A program made the position numbers and the translations under genes. From Thalassorhabdomicrobium marinisediminis (lineage in GTDB: Bacteria > Pseudomonadota > Alphaproteobacteria > Rhodobacterales > Rhodobacteraceae): a DNA stretch of 64,000 bases. The notes under the pieces are model-generated. The model ran no database searches and was not told the DNA's origin. It was given only the letters and a program-made list of their open reading frames with translations. The stretch lies in the NCBI RefSeq assembly GCF_003072065.1, contig NZ_QCYG01000005.1, positions 62,001 to 126,000 on the forward strand, read 5' to 3'. The stretch's first letter is position 1, and each line of letters starts with the position of its first letter. Below, piece after piece: positions 25,028-35,307 of the stretch.

Positions 25028-25109
25028 CCGAGCATTATCAATCTTTTCAATTGAGTGTTTAGGCACCGCCACCCCTAGGCCCCGCCCACCGGTGGGCTAT
25101 GGTGGTCCC

Positions 25110-25928
25110 ATGAAAAAGCCAGTGTATTACGCCCCGCATGGCGGCCACCCGCCGCAAACGCAGCTTCTGACGGACCGCGCGATCTTCACCGACGCCTATG
25201 CCGTCATTCCAAAGGGCACGATGCGCGACATCGTGACGTCGAACCTGCCCTTCTGGGACAAGACCCGCGCGTGGATTTTGGCGCGGCCGCTGTCGGGCTT
25301 TGCCGAAACCTTCAGCCAATACATTGTCGAAGTCGCCCCCGGCGGCGGCACCGAGCAGCCCGACACCGACCCGGACGCGCAATCGGCGCTTTTCGTGGTC
25401 GAGGGCGGCGCGACGCTGACCATCGACGGAGAGACCCACGAGCTGACCGAAGGTTCTTTCGCCTATATCCCCGTGACCGCCGAATGGACCCTGCGCAACG
25501 ACACGTCGTCCGACTGCCGGTTCCACTGGATTCGCAAGGCTTATGAGTGGGTTGAGGGAATCGACGCCCCGCCCGCGCTGGTCACCAACGACGCCGACGT
25601 CACCCCGACCGAGATGCCCGACACCAACGGCGCTTGGGCCACGACGCGTTTCGTCGACCCGGCGGACATGCGCCACGACATGGCGATCACCATCGTGACC
25701 TTCCAGCCCGGCGGCGTGATCCCGTTTCTGGAAACCCACGTCATGGAGCACGGGCTTTATGTGCTGGAAGGCAAGGCGGTCTATAACCTCAACAACGACT
25801 GGGTCGAGGTTGAAGCCGGCGATTTCATGTGGCTGCGCGCCTTCTGCCCGCAGGCCTGTTATGCCGGTGGGCCGGGGCCATTCCGCTATCTGCTGTATAA
25901 AGACGTGAACCGGCACCCGGGCCTGTAA
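25110..25928 (+). CDS. (S)-ureidoglycine aminohydrolase (bicupin)
   Basis: 272 residues forming two cupin barrels. The N-terminal barrel has FVVEGGATLTIDGETHELTEGSFAYIP. The C-terminal, manganese-binding barrel has ETHVMEHGLYVLEGKAVYNLNNDWVEVEAGDF with the His/Glu ligands. These match AllE/UGHY enzymes, which deaminate ureidoglycine to ureidoglycolate with release of ammonia in allantoate breakdown. ATG 25110 (MKKPVYYAPHGG) fits the family start better than the upstream ATG. Its product is the substrate of the lyase AllA at 32926-33408, although the bhc operon lies between them. The enzyme that makes ureidoglycine (allantoate amidohydrolase) is not seen. Confidence 0.88.
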   Translation: MKKPVYYAPHGGHPPQTQLLTDRAIFTDAYAVIPKGTMRDIVTSNLPFWDKTRAWILARPLSGFAETFSQYIVEVAPGGGTEQPDTDPDAQSALFVVEGGATLTIDGETHELTEGSFAYIPVTAEWTLRNDTSSDCRFHWIRKAYEWVEGIDAPPALVTNDADVTPTEMPDTNGAWATTRFVDPADMRHDMAITIVTFQPGGVIPFLETHVMEHGLYVLEGKAVYNLNNDWVEVEAGDFMWLRAFCPQACYAGGPGPFRYLLYKDVNRHPGL

Positions 25929-25953
25929 GACCAGCCCCGATGCACGCAGCCCC

Positions 25954-26802
25954 TCAACCCTGAGCCGCGCCGCCCAGAGCGGCGGTGAGCGCGGCGGCCT
26001 CGTGCCGGACCTGCGCGCCGATCTCGTCGATACGATCGTCGGTGATCCGCGCCACAGGACCCGAGATCGACAGGCCGGCGATGGCCTCTCCGAAGACGTC
26101 GAACACGGGGGCGGCGATACAGCGCATGCCGATGTTTTTCTCTTCCCCGTCAAGGGCATAGCCGCGATCCCTTGTGACCTCGGCATCGGCGATCAGCGCC
26201 TCGGCCGTGGTCAGCGTGTGTTCGGTGAACCGCTCGACCCGCCGCGCCGACACCATACGTTTGATCTGTGCCGCGCTGCGCTGCGCCAGAAGCGCCTTGC
26301 CGATCCCCGAGGCATGCATGGGTGACAGGGTGCCGGGCGGAAAAAAGGCGCGGATCGCGTGGTCGGTTTCCGCCTGACTGAGGAACAGCACGTCATGCCC
26401 CTTGGCCACGCCAAGGTTCGCGGTCTCGCCCGTCGCCTCCATCAGGCGCCGCAGGAACGGGCGCGCGCGCTCAACCAGCGAGGTGCCGCGCAGAAACTTC
26501 GCACCGGTCAGGAAGGCCCCCGCCCCCACCGACCAGACCTGCCGCGTCTCATCGAAGGTGGCGAAGTCGTGGGATTGTAGGGTGGTCAGCACGCGGTAGA
26601 GCGTCGCCGGGGATTGGTCGAGGTCGGCCGCAAGCTCGGTCAGTGTCGCCTCTTCCAGATCACCCAGCCGTTGCAGGATCACAAGCGCCCGATCCAGCGC
26701 CTTGATCGTGTTCTGTTCGGTCTTGTCATGCCACGCCTTGGGCCGCCCCCGCGCCCGCGTCGCACCGCCCGCAGGGACGGTCGTTTTCTCGGCTCTTTGC
26801 AC
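25954..26802 (-). CDS. bhcR: IclR-family regulator of the beta-hydroxyaspartate cycle
   Basis: 282 residues from a GTG at 26802, which is preceded by a strong GGAGGG ribosome site. Longer frames exist but have none. The winged HTH lies at about residues 28-80 (ATLTELAADLDQSPATLYRVLTTLQSHDFA). The IclR ligand domain contains NLGVAKGHDVLFLSQ, SGIGKALLAQ and CIAAPVFDVFGEAIAGLSISGP. Divergent position next to bhcA is the arrangement known for BhcR, which binds the bhc promoter and responds to glyoxylate. The Arg/Pro-rich first 25 residues look disordered. Confidence 0.9.
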   Translation of the reverse strand: MQRAEKTTVPAGGATRARGRPKAWHDKTEQNTIKALDRALVILQRLGDLEEATLTELAADLDQSPATLYRVLTTLQSHDFATFDETRQVWSVGAGAFLTGAKFLRGTSLVERARPFLRRLMEATGETANLGVAKGHDVLFLSQAETDHAIRAFFPPGTLSPMHASGIGKALLAQRSAAQIKRMVSARRVERFTEHTLTTAEALIADAEVTRDRGYALDGEEKNIGMRCIAAPVFDVFGEAIAGLSISGPVARITDDRIDEIGAQVRHEAAALTAALGGAAQG

Positions 26803-26964
26803 GGAACCCTCCAGTTTCTGAAAATATTTTTTACGATATGAAAAACTTAACTCGTTGACAAGGTTGGCCTTTCCCACATTCCCGCCACCCCATGCAGGCA
26901 ATTCGAAAAAATTGATTGGGCTGATCGGGCGGCCTAGACCAAGGGTAACACGAAAGGACACCCC
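26803..26964. promoter_or_regulatory. bhcR-bhcA divergent control region
   Basis: 162 bases, notably AT-rich next to bhcR. It holds a perfect ten-base palindrome AAAATATTTT (26821-26830) and, on the plus strand, a consensus TTGACA (26855-26860) that could be the -35 box for bhcABCD, although the -10 is weak. This is where BhcR is expected to bind. GAAAGGA before bhcA is the ribosome site. Confidence 0.5.
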
Positions 26965-28131
26965 ATGAGCTTTCAGAACCCCGTTTTTATTCCCGGCCCG
27001 ACCAATATGCCCGAAGCGGTGCGGCAGGCGTGCTATATGCCAACGATCGACCACCGCTCTTCCCTGTTCGGTGAGATCCTGCACCCCGTGCTTGAGGGCG
27101 TGCAGCGGGTGCTGAAATCCGACAGCGCGCACATCTTCATCTTCCCCTCCACCGGCACCGGCGGCTGGGAAACGGCGCTGAGCAACTGTCTGAGCCCCGG
27201 TGACAAGGTGCTGGCGGCCCGCAACGGCATGTTCTCGCACCGCTGGATCGACATGTGCCAGCGCCACAAACTGGACGTGACCGTGGTTGAAACCCCTTGG
27301 GGCCACGGCCTGCCCGCCGACCGCTATGAGGAGATCCTCAAGGCCGACAAGGACCACGAGATCAAGGTCGTGCTCGCCACGCACAACGAGACCGCGACGG
27401 GCGTGAAGTCCGATATTGCCGCTGTGCGGCGTGCGCTCGACGCGGCGAACCACCCGGCGATGCTTTTCGTGGACGGCGTGTCATCCATCGGGTCGATGGA
27501 TTTCCGTTTTGACGAATGGGGCGTCGATGTCGCCGTTACCGGCTCGCAAAAAGGCTTCATGCTGCCCGCTGGGCTGGCCATCGTCGGCTTTTCTGACAAG
27601 GCGATGAAGGCGACCGAGACCGCCACCCTGCCGCGCACCTTCTTCGACGTGGCGGACATGCAAAAGGGTTATGACAACAACGCATTCCCCTACACCCCCC
27701 CCGTGGGGCTGATGAACGGGCTGCGCCTGTCGCTGAAATTGCTTGAGGACGAAGGGCTGGAAAACGTCTTCGCCCGCCACACGCGCATCGCCACCGGCGT
27801 GCGCCACGCGGTCAAGGCCTGGGGGCTGGAGCTGTGCGCCGCCTCGCCCGAGGTTTATTCCGACACGGTTTCGGCGATCAAGACGCCCGAGGGGTTCAAC
27901 GCCACCGATATCGTCACCCGCGCGGCGGACACCTATGGCATGGCCTTCGGCGTGGGGCTAGGCGAGGTCGCGGGCAAGGTCTTCCGGATCGGGCATCTCG
28001 GCTCGCTCACCGACGCGATGATGCTCTCGGGGCTGGGTGTGGCCGAGATGGTCATGGTAGACTTGGGGCTCGACATCAAACTCGGCTCCGGTGTCGCCGC
28101 CGCTCAGGAATTTTACCGGCGCGGCGTCTGA
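26965..28131 (+). CDS. bhcA: L-aspartate:glyoxylate aminotransferase
   Basis: 388-residue class V PLP aminotransferase. The PLP lysine is in VAVTGSQKGFMLPAGLAIVGFS, and substrate/cofactor contacts lie in FPSTGTGGWETAL and LFVDGVSSIG. It resembles serine-glyoxylate aminotransferases, but the bhc context identifies it as BhcA, which makes glycine from glyoxylate using aspartate and so regenerates the cycle's acceptor. First gene of bhcABCD, with a GAAAGGA ribosome site and divergent bhcR. Confidence 0.93.
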   Translation: MSFQNPVFIPGPTNMPEAVRQACYMPTIDHRSSLFGEILHPVLEGVQRVLKSDSAHIFIFPSTGTGGWETALSNCLSPGDKVLAARNGMFSHRWIDMCQRHKLDVTVVETPWGHGLPADRYEEILKADKDHEIKVVLATHNETATGVKSDIAAVRRALDAANHPAMLFVDGVSSIGSMDFRFDEWGVDVAVTGSQKGFMLPAGLAIVGFSDKAMKATETATLPRTFFDVADMQKGYDNNAFPYTPPVGLMNGLRLSLKLLEDEGLENVFARHTRIATGVRHAVKAWGLELCAASPEVYSDTVSAIKTPEGFNATDIVTRAADTYGMAFGVGLGEVAGKVFRIGHLGSLTDAMMLSGLGVAEMVMVDLGLDIKLGSGVAAAQEFYRRGV

Positions 28132-28158
28132 CCGCCCGCCGCTTCAAGGAAAGACGCC

Positions 28159-29109
28159 ATGTATATTCCGACCTATCAGGACATGCTCGACGCCCACGAC
28201 CGGATCAAGCAGCACATCCGCGTCACCCCGGTGCGGGTGTCCGACTACCTCAATGAGCTGACCGGCGCGCAGCTGTTCTTCAAATGCGAGAACTTTCAGG
28301 AACCGGGCGCCTTCAAGGTGCGTGGCGCCTCAAACGCGGTGTTCGGGCTGGACCATGAGCAGGCCAAGAAAGGCGTCGCAACCCATTCCTCGGGCAACCA
28401 TGCGTCGTGTTTGAGCTACGCTGCCATGCTGCGCGGCATCCCCTGCAACGTCGTCATGCCCCGCACCGCGCCGCAGGCCAAAAAGGACACCGTGCGGCGC
28501 TACGGCGGCAAGATCACCGAGTGCGAGCCTTCGACCACCTCGCGCGAGGAGACCTTCGCCAGGGTGCAGGCGGAAACCGGCGGCGATTTCGTCCATCCCT
28601 ACAACGATCCGCGGGTGATCGCAGGGCAAGGCACCTGCGCGCGGGAGTTCATGGAGCAGACCGACGGGCTGGACATCGTCGTGGCCCCCATCGGCGGCGG
28701 CGGCATGATTTCGGGCACCTGCCTGACGCTGGCGACGCAGGCCCCCGAGACGCAGATCATCGCCGCGGAGCCTGCGCAGGCCGACGACGCCATGCGCAGC
28801 TTCAAGGCCGGTCACATCATCGCCGACGACGCGCCAAAGACCATCGCCGACGGCTTGTTGGTGCCGCTGAAGGACCTGACGTGGCACTTCGTGTCGAACC
28901 ATGTGACCGACATCCTCACCGCGTCGGAGGAAGAGATCGTCGACGCGATGAAGCTTACCTGGAAGCACCTGCGCATCGTGATGGAACCCAGCAGCGCCGT
29001 GCCGCTGGCTATCATCCTCAAGAACAAGGACCGGTTCGCGGGCAAGCGGGTCGGCATCATCATCACCGGCGGGAATGTCGATCTCGACAGACTGCCATGG
29101 CTTACGTGA
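28159..29109 (+). CDS. bhcB: Beta-hydroxyaspartate dehydratase
   Basis: 316-residue fold-type II PLP enzyme of the threonine/serine dehydratase group. The Schiff-base lysine is in EPGAFKVRGASNAV, the carboxylate-binding loop is SSGNHASCLSYAA, and the phosphate loop is PIGGGGMISG. In the cycle it dehydrates erythro-beta-hydroxyaspartate to iminosuccinate for BhcD. There are 27 bases after bhcA with AAGGAAAG as ribosome site. By sequence alone a serine/threonine racemase-dehydratase would be possible; neighbours decide the call. Confidence 0.92.
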   Translation: MYIPTYQDMLDAHDRIKQHIRVTPVRVSDYLNELTGAQLFFKCENFQEPGAFKVRGASNAVFGLDHEQAKKGVATHSSGNHASCLSYAAMLRGIPCNVVMPRTAPQAKKDTVRRYGGKITECEPSTTSREETFARVQAETGGDFVHPYNDPRVIAGQGTCAREFMEQTDGLDIVVAPIGGGGMISGTCLTLATQAPETQIIAAEPAQADDAMRSFKAGHIIADDAPKTIADGLLVPLKDLTWHFVSNHVTDILTASEEEIVDAMKLTWKHLRIVMEPSSAVPLAIILKNKDRFAGKRVGIIITGGNVDLDRLPWLT

Positions 29110-29121
29110 AGGACAAAGATC

Positions 29122-30288
29122 ATGAACAAACATGCGAATCTTGACACCTATGAAGTCGGCTTCGACATCCCCGCCAAACCCGGCATGGACGAAGCGGACA
29201 TCCAGACCCCCTGTCTGATCCTCGACCTCGACGCGCTTGAGCGGAACGTCAAGAAAATGGGCGACTACGCCAAGGCGCACAACATGCGTCACCGCGCCCA
29301 CGGCAAGATGCACAAATCCGTCGACGTGCTGAAGCTGCAGATGGAACTGGGCGGCGCCGTTGGCGTCTGCTGCCAGAAAGTCTCCGAAGCCGAGGTCTTC
29401 GCCCGCGCCGGCATCAAGGAAATCCTTGTGTCCAATCAGGTGCGCGACCCCGCAAAGATCGACCGTCTGGCCAATATGCCCAAGGTCTCGGGCGGCGAGG
29501 TGATCGTCTGCGTCGATGACGTGGACAACGTGGCGGACCTCTCAGCGGCGGCAAAAAAGCACGGCACCGAGCTGGGCGTCTTCGTGGAAATCGACTGCGG
29601 CGCGGGCCGTTGCGGCGTGACCACGACCGAAGCGGTCGTCGAGATCGGCAAGGCCGTGCGCGACGCCGAGAACCTCACCTTCCGCGGCATTCAGGCCTAT
29701 CAGGGCGCGATGCAGCACATGGACAGCTTCTCGGACCGCAAAGCCAAGCTTGACGCGGCCATCGCCCAGGTCGAAGACGCCATCGCAGGCTTGAAAGCCG
29801 AAGGCATCAGTTGCGATCTGGTTTCGGGCGGCGGCACGGGGTCCTATTATTTCGAAAGCAATTCGGGCGTTTACAACGAATTGCAGTGCGGCTCTTACGC
29901 CTTCATGGACGCGGACTATGGCCGTATCCTGGATGAGGATGGCAACCGCATTGACGCGGGCGAGTGGGAGAATGCCTTCTTCATCCTCACCAGCGTCATG
30001 AGCCACGCAAAGCCCGACAAGGCCATCGTGGACGCGGGCCTCAAGGCGCAATCCCTCGACAGCGGGCTGCCGCTGATCTACGGCCGCGACGATGTGGAAT
30101 ATGTCAAATGCTCCGATGAGCACGGCGTGGTCTCGGACCCGAAGGGGGTGCTGAAGATCAACGAAAAGCTCAAGCTGGTGCCCGGCCACTGCGACCCGAC
30201 CGCGAACATCCACGATTGGTATGTGGGCGTGCGGGGTGGCAAGGTTGAGGTGGTCTGGCCCGTCAGCGCCCGCGGCAAGGCTTACTAA
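29122..30288 (+). CDS. bhcC: Beta-hydroxyaspartate aldolase
   Basis: 388-residue fold-type III PLP enzyme related to D-threonine aldolase/DSD1. The N-terminal alanine-racemase-like barrel carries the PLP lysine region RHRAHGKMHKSVDVL. The C-terminal beta domain holds the metal-site motif VPGHCDPTANIHDW and ends GGKVEVVWPVSARGKAY. It condenses glycine and glyoxylate to beta-hydroxyaspartate, the carbon-fixing step of the cycle. It lies 12 bases after bhcB. Confidence 0.93.
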   Translation: MNKHANLDTYEVGFDIPAKPGMDEADIQTPCLILDLDALERNVKKMGDYAKAHNMRHRAHGKMHKSVDVLKLQMELGGAVGVCCQKVSEAEVFARAGIKEILVSNQVRDPAKIDRLANMPKVSGGEVIVCVDDVDNVADLSAAAKKHGTELGVFVEIDCGAGRCGVTTTEAVVEIGKAVRDAENLTFRGIQAYQGAMQHMDSFSDRKAKLDAAIAQVEDAIAGLKAEGISCDLVSGGGTGSYYFESNSGVYNELQCGSYAFMDADYGRILDEDGNRIDAGEWENAFFILTSVMSHAKPDKAIVDAGLKAQSLDSGLPLIYGRDDVEYVKCSDEHGVVSDPKGVLKINEKLKLVPGHCDPTANIHDWYVGVRGGKVEVVWPVSARGKAY

Positions 30289-30329
30289 GGCCCGCCTGCT
30301 GGCACAGGTTCTCTTGATCCAACCAACAG

Positions 30330-30353
30330 GGGGGCGAGCGCAGGTTCGCCCCC
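30330..30353 (+). terminator. Intercistronic hairpin between bhcC and bhcD
   Basis: Eight-base perfect stem GGGGGCGA (30330-30337) with TCGCCCCC (30346-30353), followed by TTTCTC. It sits within the 88-base gap ahead of bhcD, whereas the other bhc gaps are 12-27 bases. It looks like an attenuator or an RNA-stability element that lowers bhcD expression relative to bhcABC, rather than an operon end. Confidence 0.5.
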
Positions 30354-30376
30354 TTTCTCATTGAAAAGGAAACAGA

Positions 30377-31342
30377 ATGTATATCGTTCCCGAAGCCGCG
30401 ATTGCGGATATCCTCACCCGTGACGACGCCTTCGCCGCCGTCGAACAGGTCTTCGCCGCCATGTCAGCCGGCGACGCCTACAACTTCCCCGTCATCCGCG
30501 AAGCCATCGGCCATGAGAATGCGCTTTACGGCTTCAAGGGCGGCTTTGACGGCAAGGGCATGGCGCTGGGGCTCAAGGCGGGCGGCTATTGGCCCCACAA
30601 CCTCGAAAAGCGCGGGCTGATCAATCACCAGTCCACCGTCTTCCTGTTCGATCCGGACACCGGCAAGGTCGCGGCGATGGTGGGCGGCAACCTGTTGACC
30701 GCTTTGCGCACCGCCGCCGCGTCCAGCGTCTCGATCAAGCATCTGGCGCGCAAGGATGCCCGCGTCATGGGTATGATCGGGGCGGGCCATCAGGCCAAGT
30801 TCCAGCTCCGTGCCGCCCTTGAGACGCACAGCTTCGACAAGGTAATCGGCTGGAACTATCACCCCGAGATGCTGCCCAGTCTGGCCGAAGTCGCCGCTGA
30901 ATTCGACCTGCCCTTCGAGCGGGTCGAGCTTGACGGCATGACAGAGGCGGACGTGGTGATCTCCATGACCTCCTCCTTCGATCCGATCTTCGGCACGGCG
31001 CATATCAGCCCCGGCACCCACGTGGCCTGAATGGGCACCGACACCGTGGGCAAGCAGGAATGCGACGCCGATCTGATCGTTGCGGCCACGGTCTTCACAG
31101 ATGAGGTCGCGCAGTCGATCACGCTGGGCGAAGCACAGCACGCGGTGAAGGCAAGACGGAAGGCGAAAGAGGACATTTACGAGATCGGCGCGGTGATCAA
31201 CGGCACCCACAAGGGGCGCACCTCGGATGATGAGATCACCCTGTTCGACGGCACCGGCGTGGGCCTGCAGGACCTTGCCGTTGCGGCCAGCATCGTTGAG
31301 GTCGCCAAGGCCACGGGGATCGGGCAAGAGGTCGATTTCTAA
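30377..31342 (+). pseudogene. bhcD: Iminosuccinate reductase gene interrupted by in-frame TGA
   Basis: A 321-codon frame for an ornithine cyclodeaminase/mu-crystallin-family NAD(P)H reductase that turns iminosuccinate into aspartate, closing the cycle. The N-terminal part has the substrate-binding KGGFDGKGMALGLKAGGYWP region and the nucleotide fold VMGMIGAGHQAKFQLRAALE. Codon 218 (31028-31030) is TGA in GTHVA-stop-MGTDT, where family members, as I recall them, read GTHxACMGTDTxGKQE. The frame then continues with ATG and a fully conserved-looking C-terminus (GKQECDADLIVAATVFTDEVAQS and on). So it is a single nonsense change, a sequence error, a two-piece protein restarted at the adjacent ATG, or recoding. 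The ribosome site AAAAGGAAAC is intact. Confidence 0.85.
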
Positions 31343-31370
31343 CCCTCCCCCCCGTTCGCGCAAACGCAAG

Positions 31371-31400
31371 CCCCCGCAGATCGCTCTGCGGGGGCCTTTT
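31371..31400 (+). terminator. Rho-independent terminator of the bhc operon
   Basis: Ten-base perfect stem CCCCCGCAGA (31371-31380) with TCTGCGGGGG (31385-31394) and a TCGC loop, then CCTTTTGTTT. It lies 28 bases after bhcD and 18 bases before the end of the convergent permease gene, so it may work for both. Confidence 0.88.
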
Positions 31401-31418
31401 GTTTGGTCCGGATCAGGA

Positions 31419-32867
31419 TCAGACGTTGGCGGCGCTTGCCTCGGCCTTGCCCTTCAACCCGGTGCCGTGGCCCGACAGCCCGCCCGAGACGTCCTCGGTC
31501 GCCTCGCTGGCCAGCTCTTCCGGCAGGATCAGGTTGAGGACGATCGCGAGGAAGGCTGCGGGCAGCAGACCGCTGGTCATCAGGATGCGCGCTGTGTCGG
31601 GCAGACCTGCGACGGCGGCCGGCTCAAGCTGCAAGCCCAGCCCGATCGACAGCGAGATCGCGAAGATCACCATGTTGCGGCGGTTCCAGATCACGTCGGA
31701 GAGCATCGAGATACCCGCCGCGACGACCATGCCGAACATCACGATCACGCCACCGCCCAGCACTTCGATCGGAACCGTGCGGATCACGCCGCCCACCTTG
31801 GGGATCAGACCGCAGATGATTAGGAAGATCGCGCCGAAGGTCACGACGTGGCGGCTCATCACCCCTGTCATGGCGATCAGGCCGACGTTCTGGCTGAACG
31901 AGGTGTTGGGGAAGCCGCCGAAGATACCGGCCAGCGCGGTGCCGAAACCGTCGGCATAGGTGGCGCCGGTGATTTCGTCGTTGGTCGCCTCGCGACCCGC
32001 GCCACCTTTGGTGATCCCCGAGACATCGCCCACCGTTTCAATGGCCGAGATAAAGGCCATCAGGCAGAAGCCGATGATTGCCGCGGCCGAGAACTCGAAC
32101 CCGTATTTGAAGGGCTGCGGCAAAGCAAAGGCTGCGGAATTCTGCCACGACCCGGTGACGGCGGACCATTCCAGAATGCCCACGCCCAGCGAATAGAAGT
32201 AGCCCACGATGATGCCAAGCAGCACCGCCGAGACCGACAACATGCCCTTGGTGAAGAACTTCAGCCCCAGCGTGACAACGATCACAACAAGCGCCGCGGA
32301 CCAGTTCAGAAGCGAGCCGTATTCAGGCGTGCCTATCGCCGGAACGCCACCGGCGGCGTATTGGATGCCGACCTTGACCAGCGCAAGACCGATCATCGTC
32401 ACCACCAGCCCGGTTACCAGCGGCGGAAGCGCAAAGCGAATCTTGCCGATGAATAGGCCAAGGAACGCGTGGAACAGGCCGCCGATGATCACCCCGCCGA
32501 ACAAGGCGGCCAGTCCGTCGACCCCTTTGCCGGCCACCAGCGGGATCATGATCGGGATGAAGGCGAACGAAGTGCCCTGCACGATGGGCAACGCCGCGCC
32601 CACAGGGCCCAGCGTGATCGTCTGCAGCAGCGTCGCGACACCGGCAAACAGCATCGACATCTGGATCAGATAGAGCAGTTCCGGAAAATCGGGGCTGTTT
32701 GAGCCGAAGCCGAAGCCCGCCGCCCCGGCCACGATGATCGCCGGGGTCACGTTGGATACGAACATCGCCAGCACGTGCTGGATGCCCAGCGGCACCGCCT
32801 TGTGAAGTGCTGGCGTATAGTTGGGGTCGCGGAGCTGCTCCGGCGTCCCGAGTGAATGATCAGTCAT
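31419..32867 (-). CDS. Xanthine/uric acid permease (NCS2 family)
   Basis: 482-residue nucleobase:cation symporter-2 transporter with about 14 membrane helices. NCS2 signatures are visible: QHVLAMFVSNVTPAIIVAG near the N-terminus, the FIPIMIPL region of helix 3, the AFISAIETVGDVSGI motif of helix 8, and FPNTSFSQNVGLIAMTGVMSRHV after helix 9. The QNVG signature together with neighbouring urate-degradation genes favours uric acid or xanthine over uracil. ATG 32867 is chosen over a TTG one codon earlier. It is likely the last gene of the minus-strand unit that starts with puuE-uraD and allA. Confidence 0.88.
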   Translation of the reverse strand: MTDHSLGTPEQLRDPNYTPALHKAVPLGIQHVLAMFVSNVTPAIIVAGAAGFGFGSNSPDFPELLYLIQMSMLFAGVATLLQTITLGPVGAALPIVQGTSFAFIPIMIPLVAGKGVDGLAALFGGVIIGGLFHAFLGLFIGKIRFALPPLVTGLVVTMIGLALVKVGIQYAAGGVPAIGTPEYGSLLNWSAALVVIVVTLGLKFFTKGMLSVSAVLLGIIVGYFYSLGVGILEWSAVTGSWQNSAAFALPQPFKYGFEFSAAAIIGFCLMAFISAIETVGDVSGITKGGAGREATNDEITGATYADGFGTALAGIFGGFPNTSFSQNVGLIAMTGVMSRHVVTFGAIFLIICGLIPKVGGVIRTVPIEVLGGGVIVMFGMVVAAGISMLSDVIWNRRNMVIFAISLSIGLGLQLEPAAVAGLPDTARILMTSGLLPAAFLAIVLNLILPEELASEATEDVSGGLSGHGTGLKGKAEASAANV

Positions 32868-32925
32868 CAATGTCTTCCCTTTGCGTTGCTTTTTGATGTG
32901 TTACCCGTCTTTTCGCGGGCTTGGA

Positions 32926-33408
32926 TTACGATACGACGACGTAAGGATCGTCGAACCAGTGCTCTTCCAGATTGGCCCCCTCGCCTATCCGGTCGATCAC
33001 GGCGAACTGCCCCGGTGCATGCAGCGGAGTCAGGACGCCATGCCATATGTTGCGATGCAAATTGATCGCCTGTCCAGATTTAGTTATGAACGCGCGCAGA
33101 TTTGCAGGCGTGCCGTCCGCATCCTCGGCCACGATCACCAGAAAGGGATGTTCGCTCATCGGGATGAACGCCTGGCTGCCGTCCGGATGCCGCTCGACCA
33201 TGTCGACCGTATAGGGCAGCGCGCGCGGCTTGGCCTTGAACAGGCTGATGCCCGCGCGCCCGGCGTTGAAGTCCAGTGTGGCCCGATCATGAAACCGCCC
33301 GCACATGCCCTGATTGATCAGCTTGTCGGGATCGCCGGAACAGTCCAGCAGATCCCCGAACGGTGCGAAAGCCTCGGGCGTGAGCGGGGCGAGTTTCAGT
33401 TGAGTCAT
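32926..33408 (-). CDS. allA: Ureidoglycolate lyase
   Basis: 160-residue cupin-fold enzyme splitting ureidoglycolate into glyoxylate and urea, the last step of allantoin breakdown. The family start LAPLTPEAFAPFGDLLD, the central PYTVDMVERHPDGSQAFIPM and the INLHRNIWHGVLTPL metal-site histidines are present. The four-base overlap with the upstream puuE-uraD fusion shows coupling. The glyoxylate it makes is a direct substrate of BhcA and BhcC, encoded 3-6 kb away. Confidence 0.93.
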   Translation of the reverse strand: MTQLKLAPLTPEAFAPFGDLLDCSGDPDKLINQGMCGRFHDRATLDFNAGRAGISLFKAKPRALPYTVDMVERHPDGSQAFIPMSEHPFLVIVAEDADGTPANLRAFITKSGQAINLHRNIWHGVLTPLHAPGQFAVIDRIGEGANLEEHWFDDPYVVVS

Positions 33409-34811
33409 GCAAAATGGTCCTTCAGGCGAAGTTCGGCAATCCGTTCCACCTGACGGCAGGCGGTGTCGAACTCGGTTTCCGTGTCATGGTCGATCCGGGT
33501 GCGGAAGGCCTCCATGATGCCGGGCTTGCTGTGGTCCCGCACGGCGATGATGAAGGGAAATCCGTGCTTTTCAACGTATTGCGCGTTGAGGCTCTGGAAG
33601 GTTTCGCGCTCTTCGTCGGTCAGTTGGTCCAGACCTGCGCCCGCTTGCTCCGACGTGCTTTCGGCGGTCAGGCGTCCAGCGGCGGCGAGTTTTCCGGCCA
33701 GATCGGGGTGCGCGGTCAACACGCCAAGGCGTTCGTCGTGGCTGGCGCTGCGGAACATGCGGGAAAGCGCGGAATGAATGCCCGTGGCGGTGTCATGGGT
33801 CGGCCCCAGCCCCAGATCGTAGGCCCGCTCGGCGATCCAGGGGGAATGCTCGAAGATGCTGCCGAAGGTCTCGACGAAGGTCGCCTTGTCCATCTGCGAG
33901 GGGCGGTTCCAGCGCACCGGCGGATGCTCCGCCGCCCAGTGATCGGCAATCTCTTCGCGGGTGGCGAACCAAACGCCTTCATGGCTGTTGGCATAGTCGA
34001 TGAACTGTTGCAGCGCCTGCGCGCGACCCGGACGGCCCACCAGACGGCAATGCAGACCGATGGACATCATCCGCCCGCCCTCGGCGTAGAGCACATCGAA
34101 GGTCGCCTTGAGGTAGTCGAGGAACTGCGCGGGCGCGTTGAACCCCTGCGGCGTGGCGAAGCGCATGTCGTTGCAGTCCAGCGTATAGGGCACGATCAAC
34201 TGGTCGCGCTCGCCCACTTCAATCCAATAGGGCACATCGTCCGCATAGGCGTCCGCGATATATTTGAACGCGCCGGTTTCGGCGGCCAGCTCGATCGTGT
34301 TCTCGGACGAGCGGCCGGTGTACCAGCCCTTCGGCGCTTGGCCGGTGACTTCGGTGTGCAGGCGGATGGCCTCGGCGATCTGCTCGCGCTCCATCTGGGG
34401 CGTCATGTCCTTGTGCTCGATCCACTTCAACCCGTGCGAGGCAACCTCCCACCCCGCGTCGAGCATCGCCTTGACCTGCTCGGGCGCGCGCGCCAGCGCG
34501 GTGGCCACGCCGTAAACCGTCACCGGCAGGTCTTTCAGCATCCGGTGCAGGCGCCAGAACCCGGCGCGGGCGCCGTATTCGTAGATCGATTCCATGTTCG
34601 CGTGCCGCTGCCCGGGCCATGGGGCCGCGCCCACGATCTCCGACAGGAACGCCTCAGAGGCGAGGTCACCGTGCAGAATGTTGTTCTCGCCCCCCTCTTC
34701 GTAGTTCAGGACGATCTGCACGGCGATGCGCGCCCCGCCGGGCCAGTTCGCCTCGGGCGGGGTGGCGCCGTAGCCGGTCATGTCGCGTGGATATTTGGCA
34801 GTTTCAGTCAT
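33405..34811 (-). CDS. puuE: Fused allantoinase (PuuE) and OHCU decarboxylase (UraD)
   Basis: 468-residue two-domain protein. Residues 1-~305 are a polysaccharide-deacetylase-type allantoinase (IAVQIVLNYEEGGENN, the RAGFWRLHRML segment, GWEVASHGLKWIEH with metal-site His, GLHCRLVGRPGR). Residues ~315-468 are a UraD domain (FVETFGSIFEHSPWIAERAY, LTAHPDLAGKL, EKHGFPFIIAVRDHSK), which decarboxylates the urate-pathway intermediate OHCU to S-allantoin. The fusion therefore catalyses two steps in series: OHCU to allantoin, then to allantoate. Divergent from uraH, whose product is the UraD substrate. PuuE-UraD fusions are known in Rhodobacterales. Confidence 0.93.
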   Translation of the reverse strand: MTETAKYPRDMTGYGATPPEANWPGGARIAVQIVLNYEEGGENNILHGDLASEAFLSEIVGAAPWPGQRHANMESIYEYGARAGFWRLHRMLKDLPVTVYGVATALARAPEQVKAMLDAGWEVASHGLKWIEHKDMTPQMEREQIAEAIRLHTEVTGQAPKGWYTGRSSENTIELAAETGAFKYIADAYADDVPYWIEVGERDQLIVPYTLDCNDMRFATPQGFNAPAQFLDYLKATFDVLYAEGGRMMSIGLHCRLVGRPGRAQALQQFIDYANSHEGVWFATREEIADHWAAEHPPVRWNRPSQMDKATFVETFGSIFEHSPWIAERAYDLGLGPTHDTATGIHSALSRMFRSASHDERLGVLTAHPDLAGKLAAAGRLTAESTSEQAGAGLDQLTDEERETFQSLNAQYVEKHGFPFIIAVRDHSKPGIMEAFRTRIDHDTETEFDTACRQVERIAELRLKDHFA

Positions 34812-34953
34812 ATCGGTCCCATTTTCGTTGTAGGCACGATAGACGAAAAACCGCGCCCGGATTTACAGGTATTTCTTGAAAGAGTGTAAAACTACCCGCG
34901 TTTGCGTTGTGATTGGTTTCGCCGCAGATAAGATGACCAAAAGGAGAATGTCT

Positions 34954-35307
34954 ATGTCCGGATATCTGACCACCCATGTTCTTGACACCGCACGCGGCGT
35001 GCCCGCCCAAGGGATCAAGATTGAGCTGTATCGCCTTGATGGTGAGCGCACCCTGATCGCCGAGACCGAAACCAATGACGACGGGCGCACCGACAGCCCG
35101 ATCCTGCCGCAGGACGGGTTCGAAACAGGCCGGTATGAGCTTGTCTTTTTCTGCGGTGAATACCTCGAATCCCACGGTCTGGCCGCCGGAGACTTGAAGT
35201 TTCTTGACGAAATCCCGATCCGCTTCGCCATGGACGACGGGGCCGCCCATTACCACGTGCCGCTGTTGCTCTCACCCTATGGCTACAGCACCTATCGCGG
35301 CAGCTGA
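34954..35307 (+). CDS. uraH: 5-hydroxyisourate hydrolase
   Basis: 117-residue transthyretin-like enzyme hydrolysing 5-hydroxyisourate to OHCU. The start [18 protein letters not shown] holds the first family motif with the catalytic His. The RTDSPIL segment supplies the Arg, and the C-terminal YGYSTYRGS is the diagnostic signature. ATG 34954 is chosen because AGGAG lies seven bases upstream; an ATG at 34948 and a longer frame from 34876 are less likely. The 3' end overlaps the convergent LysR gene by 16 bases. Confidence 0.95.

Follow-up and report, generated by a model that had tools for sequence, protein, structure and literature searches.

The window analysed here, a stretch of 64,000 nucleotides from Thalassorhabdomicrobium marinisediminis, carries the beta-hydroxyaspartate operon bhcABCD, in which bhcD is interrupted by one in-frame TGA. 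The features that bear on this interruption are as follows.

25954-26784, minus strand: probable bhcR, an IclR-type regulator, limits approximate, part of a longer open frame
26965-28131, plus strand: bhcA, aspartate-glyoxylate aminotransferase, intact (NF045640, 733.7 bits, cut-off 650)
28159-29109, plus strand: bhcB, beta-hydroxyaspartate dehydratase, intact (NF045641, 579.4 bits, cut-off 550)
29122-30288, plus strand: bhcC, beta-hydroxyaspartate aldolase, intact (NF045642, 747.7 bits, cut-off 690)
30328-30355, plus strand: 12-pair hairpin between bhcC and bhcD, found by folding, terminator-like on the minus strand only
30377-31030, plus strand: 5' part of bhcD, residues 1-217 and the TGA (NF045643 positions 1-217, 388.6 bits)
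31028-31030, plus strand: in-frame TGA at residue 218, a Cys column (translation and alignment of relatives)
31031-31342, plus strand: 3' part of bhcD, residues 219-321, first codon the conserved Met (NF045643 positions 219-321, 154.4 bits)
31049-31069, plus strand: weak stem that had been proposed as a SECIS, ordinary coding sequence (folding against shuffles)

The regulator was named from its position and a look at its family, and we take it to be bhcR; the stretch is matched in 70 of 80 bhc loci, the best 80 of 422. The operon sits among urate-degradation genes at 25092-35307, with a ureidoglycine aminohydrolase on one flank and, on the other, an NCS2 nucleobase permease (just below the xanthine-permease cut-off), a ureidoglycolate lyase, an allantoinase-OHCU decarboxylase fusion and a hydroxyisourate hydrolase. 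In the fusion, allantoinase PuuE and OHCU decarboxylase share one frame of 468 residues at 33405-34811 on the minus strand. Ureidoglycolate lyase releases glyoxylate, which is the substrate of the beta-hydroxyaspartate cycle. Among the same 80 loci, 70 of which have full 5 kb flanks, a ureidoglycolate lyase is found at 38 and a ureidoglycine aminohydrolase at 35. Our literature search returned no paper combining hydroxyaspartate, ureidoglycolate and glyoxylate; two papers came up that combine the hydroxyaspartate cycle with allantoin and purine, and in one of them, PMC11323563, purines and allantoin are named as glyoxylate sources.

Translation of 30377-31342 (plus strand) gives 217 residues, the TGA at 31028-31030, 103 further residues and then a TAA; the TGA is the sole in-frame stop and there is no frameshift. 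Read through, the frame matches NCBIfam NF045643 from end to end with 566 bits against a cut-off of 500, a score that neither piece reaches alone, and it adjoins bhcA, bhcB and bhcC in the operon, so that family match and position both identify it as bhcD even as its coding sequence is broken once. The statement of the first-pass annotation that the iminosuccinate reductase frame is intact on either side of a single TGA is borne out by the translation and by the matches of both pieces to NF045643. Of the solved structures, PDB 6rqa (BhcD, iminosuccinate reductase) is the nearest in sequence. With BhcD as represented by 6rqa and NF045643 the window gene shares the end-to-end alignment of its read-through frame and the place after bhcA, bhcB and bhcC; it differs by the one interrupting TGA. 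A codon-usage scan of the six frames of the window picked out 13 in-frame stops that have at least 50 coding-like codons on either side, among them the TGA of bhcD and the ends of bhcA and bhcB; the remaining 10, judged by eye, appear to be gene boundaries or antisense shadow frames.

The gap between bhcC and bhcD was compared across 73 distinct gaps of at least 40 bases, the window's included (5 shorter ones were left out and 16 of 96 loci were unusable). When compared with dinucleotide shuffles, 60 of the 73 have a z below -2, the median being -3.23, and a hairpin of at least 8 pairs occurs in 39, of which 11 have a T-rich tail. The gap in the window folds with a z of -1.70, 12 of 200 shuffles being as stable, and the gap sequences differ between relatives. 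The gap hairpin may tune the output of bhcD relative to bhcABC.

The residue at the TGA had been expected to be Cys, and the alignment of homologues agrees with that expectation. In 95 other loci, a set that excludes the window's own, includes the 80 and contains some genomes twice, the column of residue 218 holds Cys 93 times, Ala twice and never a stop; for the best 80 of 422 relatives the counts are Cys 78, Ala 2 and stop 0. The residue of 6rqa at this column is Ala. Since 6rqa and two relatives have Ala, Cys at 218 is replaceable, and comparison of these sequences indicates that it is usual, not essential; a redox role for the residue is unlikely for the same reason. The codon right after the column is ATG in all of the best 80 of 422 relatives, every one of them uninterrupted. 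The first-pass annotation had pointed to the ATG that follows the TGA as a place where a second subunit could be started. The ATG is indeed there, but as a re-initiation feature it loses its force, because by alignment it is the codon of the conserved Met219 and no peculiarity of the strain.

The bhcD genes of other species are uninterrupted at this column, both in the 95 other loci and in the 12 other genomes of the genus that have a close copy, and in these 12 no stop was found in bhcD at all. A close bhcD is present in 13 of the 19 genomes of the genus, our strain included, and the other 6 have only distant family relatives; because a close copy is missing from 6 of 19 genomes, bhcD is dispensable in the genus, a count to be read with the fact that 3 of these 6 are less than 90% complete. 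In a search of 13 genomes of the genus for bhcC, two (G005 and G009) had no match and a third (G007) at best one of 49% identity, and these three lack a close bhcC as well as a close bhcD. One distant relative, 27% identical, at G033:C3:217942-218703, has one TGA within the match.

Apart from the stop we found no sign of decay. In the window BhcD, none of the columns that are invariant elsewhere carries a private change, as is the case for 60 of the 80 sequences compared, a set from which duplicates, short matches and reverse-oriented loci were left out; the stop column itself is not among the invariant ones, two relatives having Ala there. Before the stop, pN/pS is 0.139 for the window against relatives and 0.092 among relatives, and after it 0.227 and 0.179 (means against 10 relatives more than 80% identical), which makes the excess greater on the 5' side of the stop than on the 3' side. 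Neither pN/pS nor private changes indicate extra decay 3' of the stop. The corresponding values are 0.207 and 0.167 for bhcA, 0.198 and 0.150 for bhcC, and 0.150 and 0.150 for bhcB, the relative sets being larger (48 for bhcA, 27 for bhcB and 63 for bhcC), so that comparison between genes is rough. The earlier view that bhcA, bhcB and bhcC have not decayed is upheld in that all pass their models, with the qualification that divergence in bhcA and bhcC is slightly faster than it is between relatives. Because bhcD shows no further decay, the lesion is either recent or an error.

We consider it probable that bhcD carries a recent nonsense mutation that inactivates iminosuccinate reductase. A single such mutation would end translation after residue 217, within a predicted domain that we take to be NAD-binding. 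A structure model of the read-through BhcD (mean pLDDT 79.3, pTM 0.77, built with 19 sequences; five models ranging from 59.8 to 79.3) has a strand, 215-218, that ends with residue 218 and is followed by strands 237-241, 267-269 and 287-291 and a long helix, 295-313. The truncated protein would be missing the final third of BhcD, and with it this long C-terminal helix. The enzyme would then presumably be dead, the cycle would no longer regenerate its own aspartate, and iminosuccinate would be left to decay or to reduction by a different enzyme, for example an aspartate dehydrogenase encoded elsewhere. The stop is ordinary in kind. Like recent single-stop bacterial pseudogenes, which we take to be the kind to which bhcD is best likened, the gene has one stop, a frame otherwise intact and a patchy distribution in its genus, and we see no notable difference from them. 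Among the papers listed by a literature search, no title or abstract opening reports a stop in bhcD.

The alternative to be taken most seriously, though we hold it to be a good deal less likely than a nonsense mutation, is a sequencing or assembly error, in which case the true bhcD would be intact and normal BhcD would be made. The otherwise undecayed bhcD fits an error equally well, and the intact bhcA, bhcB and bhcC and the lack of any interruption in the 95 other loci are likewise what an error would leave. Against it stands the quality of the assembly (3,432,712 bases, 35 contigs, completeness 100, contamination 0.19); in good assemblies, an error of one substituted base is less common than a pseudogene with one stop.

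If the stop is real, the cycle might still run without an intact bhcD, through readthrough by a route other than selenocysteine at a useful rate or through takeover by aspartate dehydrogenase; we think this improbable. A second copy of bhcD as a backup was considered and rejected, the sole other match in the genome being a relative of 29% identity. Aspartate dehydrogenase can reduce iminosuccinate to aspartate, and the genome has such a gene at C2:2871-3650 (367 bits, cut-off 177), beside what, from a look at their sequences, we take to be genes for a LysR-type regulator, an aldehyde dehydrogenase and a dihydrodipicolinate-synthase-like gene. Going by its sequence, this enzyme could in principle supply the reaction of BhcD. 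Aspartate dehydrogenase is found in 8 of the 19 genomes of the genus, ours included, the other seven copies being 33-64% identical. Six of these seven genomes (G002, G003, G004, G008, G014 and G017) have it together with an uninterrupted bhcD, and carrying it therefore does not point to replacement; the seventh, G005, has it and no close bhcD. The idea that aspartate dehydrogenase was gained as a replacement for bhcD was dropped, there being no link with bhcD loss across the genus. If readthrough or takeover did operate, the fourth step of the cycle could be supplied from outside the normal bhcD.

Functional readthrough of the UGA by a near-cognate or suppressor tRNA, giving some full-length BhcD, is in our judgement very unlikely. 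UGA is a leaky stop, and the sequence 3' of the stop still looks constrained, but a recent event accounts for that constraint equally well, and the lack of any stop in the best 80 of 422 relatives means that there is no conserved signal. The anticodon TCA is also missing from the 38 tRNA places found in the genome (30, 4 and 4 as read). This list, which makes a suppressor tRNA unlikely, is incomplete, having no Tyr tRNA and no Ile tRNA of anticodon GAT. Searching with a crude TCA-anticodon pattern returned 130 hits, 55 of them forward and 75 reverse (14 and 16 for a reversed-pattern control). ARAGORN, run on 30 of the 130, recognised no tRNA at the pattern itself; its one find was an adjacent tRNA-Ser that had been counted previously. 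A suppressor tRNA was set aside on the basis of these 38 places, incomplete as to Tyr and Ile-GAT.

A split gene, in which re-initiation at the ATG after the stop would yield pieces of 217 and 103 residues that join as an active enzyme, is likewise very unlikely. An ATG and a 103-codon frame do follow directly after the TGA, but the presence of the same ATG in all of the best 80 of 422 relatives, uninterrupted as they are, means that it is not an adaptation, and re-initiation as a special feature was discarded for the generality of this codon. By eye there is no Shine-Dalgarno-like sequence upstream of 31031, and in the structure model the cut comes where strand 215-218 ends, ahead of further strands of the protein; judged from the model, two separately made pieces are unlikely to join within one fold.

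The first-pass annotation had also raised selenocysteine recoding, with the stem at 31049-31069 as its SECIS. Two observations favour selenocysteine, the TGA at a Cys column, which bhcD has in common with bacterial UGA-selenocysteine genes such as fdhA, and a selD at C32:63097-63981 that is over its cut-off (282.2 bits against 125). The setting differs from that of fdhA-type genes in that selA, selB and tRNA-Sec were not found in our genome, and bhcD has no SECIS above chance. A selA search gave no match; of the 14 genomes used as controls, 4 were positive in the same search, E. coli included. For selB there were 10 matches, none above the cut-off of 242.25 bits (best 185.9), which 2 of the 14 controls exceeded; the best two align with positions 1-265 of the 581 in the profile and belong to frames of 410-415 residues, a length that would fit EF-Tu. 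For tRNA-Sec (selC) there were 8 matches, the best with 44.7 bits where the cut-off is 47, and ARAGORN assigns every one of them to an ordinary Ser, Leu, Gly, Glu or Cys tRNA. In stability the stem does not surpass shuffled sequence: the folding energy of 31028-31090 is -17.8 kcal/mol where shuffles average -18.66 (z +0.30), 119 of 200 shuffles equal or exceed it in stability, and no SECIS stem after the UGA rises above chance. Ala at the column in 2 of the best 80 of 422 relatives and in 6rqa also speaks against selenocysteine. Among the sel genes whose joint absence had been put forward as decisive, selA, selB and selC were thus not found, which argues against recoding, and selD is present, so that absence does not hold for the whole set. 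The selD, too, has another explanation, because a match to tRNA 2-selenouridine synthase (C32:64154-65068, 350.6 bits, cut-off 219.75) lies about 170 bases away on the opposite strand. In the available part of a 2006 genome survey (PMC1794560), selD with ybbB constitutes a selenouridine trait distinct from Sec decoding, the two are usually in one operon, in contrast to the opposite strands of our pair, and fdhA is the only selenoprotein of the Sec-decoding Alphaproteobacteria covered. As selA, selB and tRNA-Sec were not found in the assembly of 35 contigs, we dismiss recoding, including stem-directed insertion of selenocysteine at this UGA, with near certainty. A false lead is thereby removed: a TGA stands at a Cys column and selD is in the genome, yet the product of bhcD is no selenoprotein.

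A recent nonsense mutation in bhcD thus stands as our preferred reading, and it would fall in a genome in which we found no match to isocitrate lyase of the glyoxylate cycle. In Paracoccus denitrificans, deletion strains for bhcABCD and for bhcR do not grow on glycolate or glyoxylate, according to the available part of PMC11323563; the literature searched, that part included, yielded nothing on a loss of bhcD by itself. If the stop is real, the strain would offer a natural loss of bhcD with intact bhcA, bhcB and bhcC, and possibly a test of whether the regeneration of aspartate can be bypassed.
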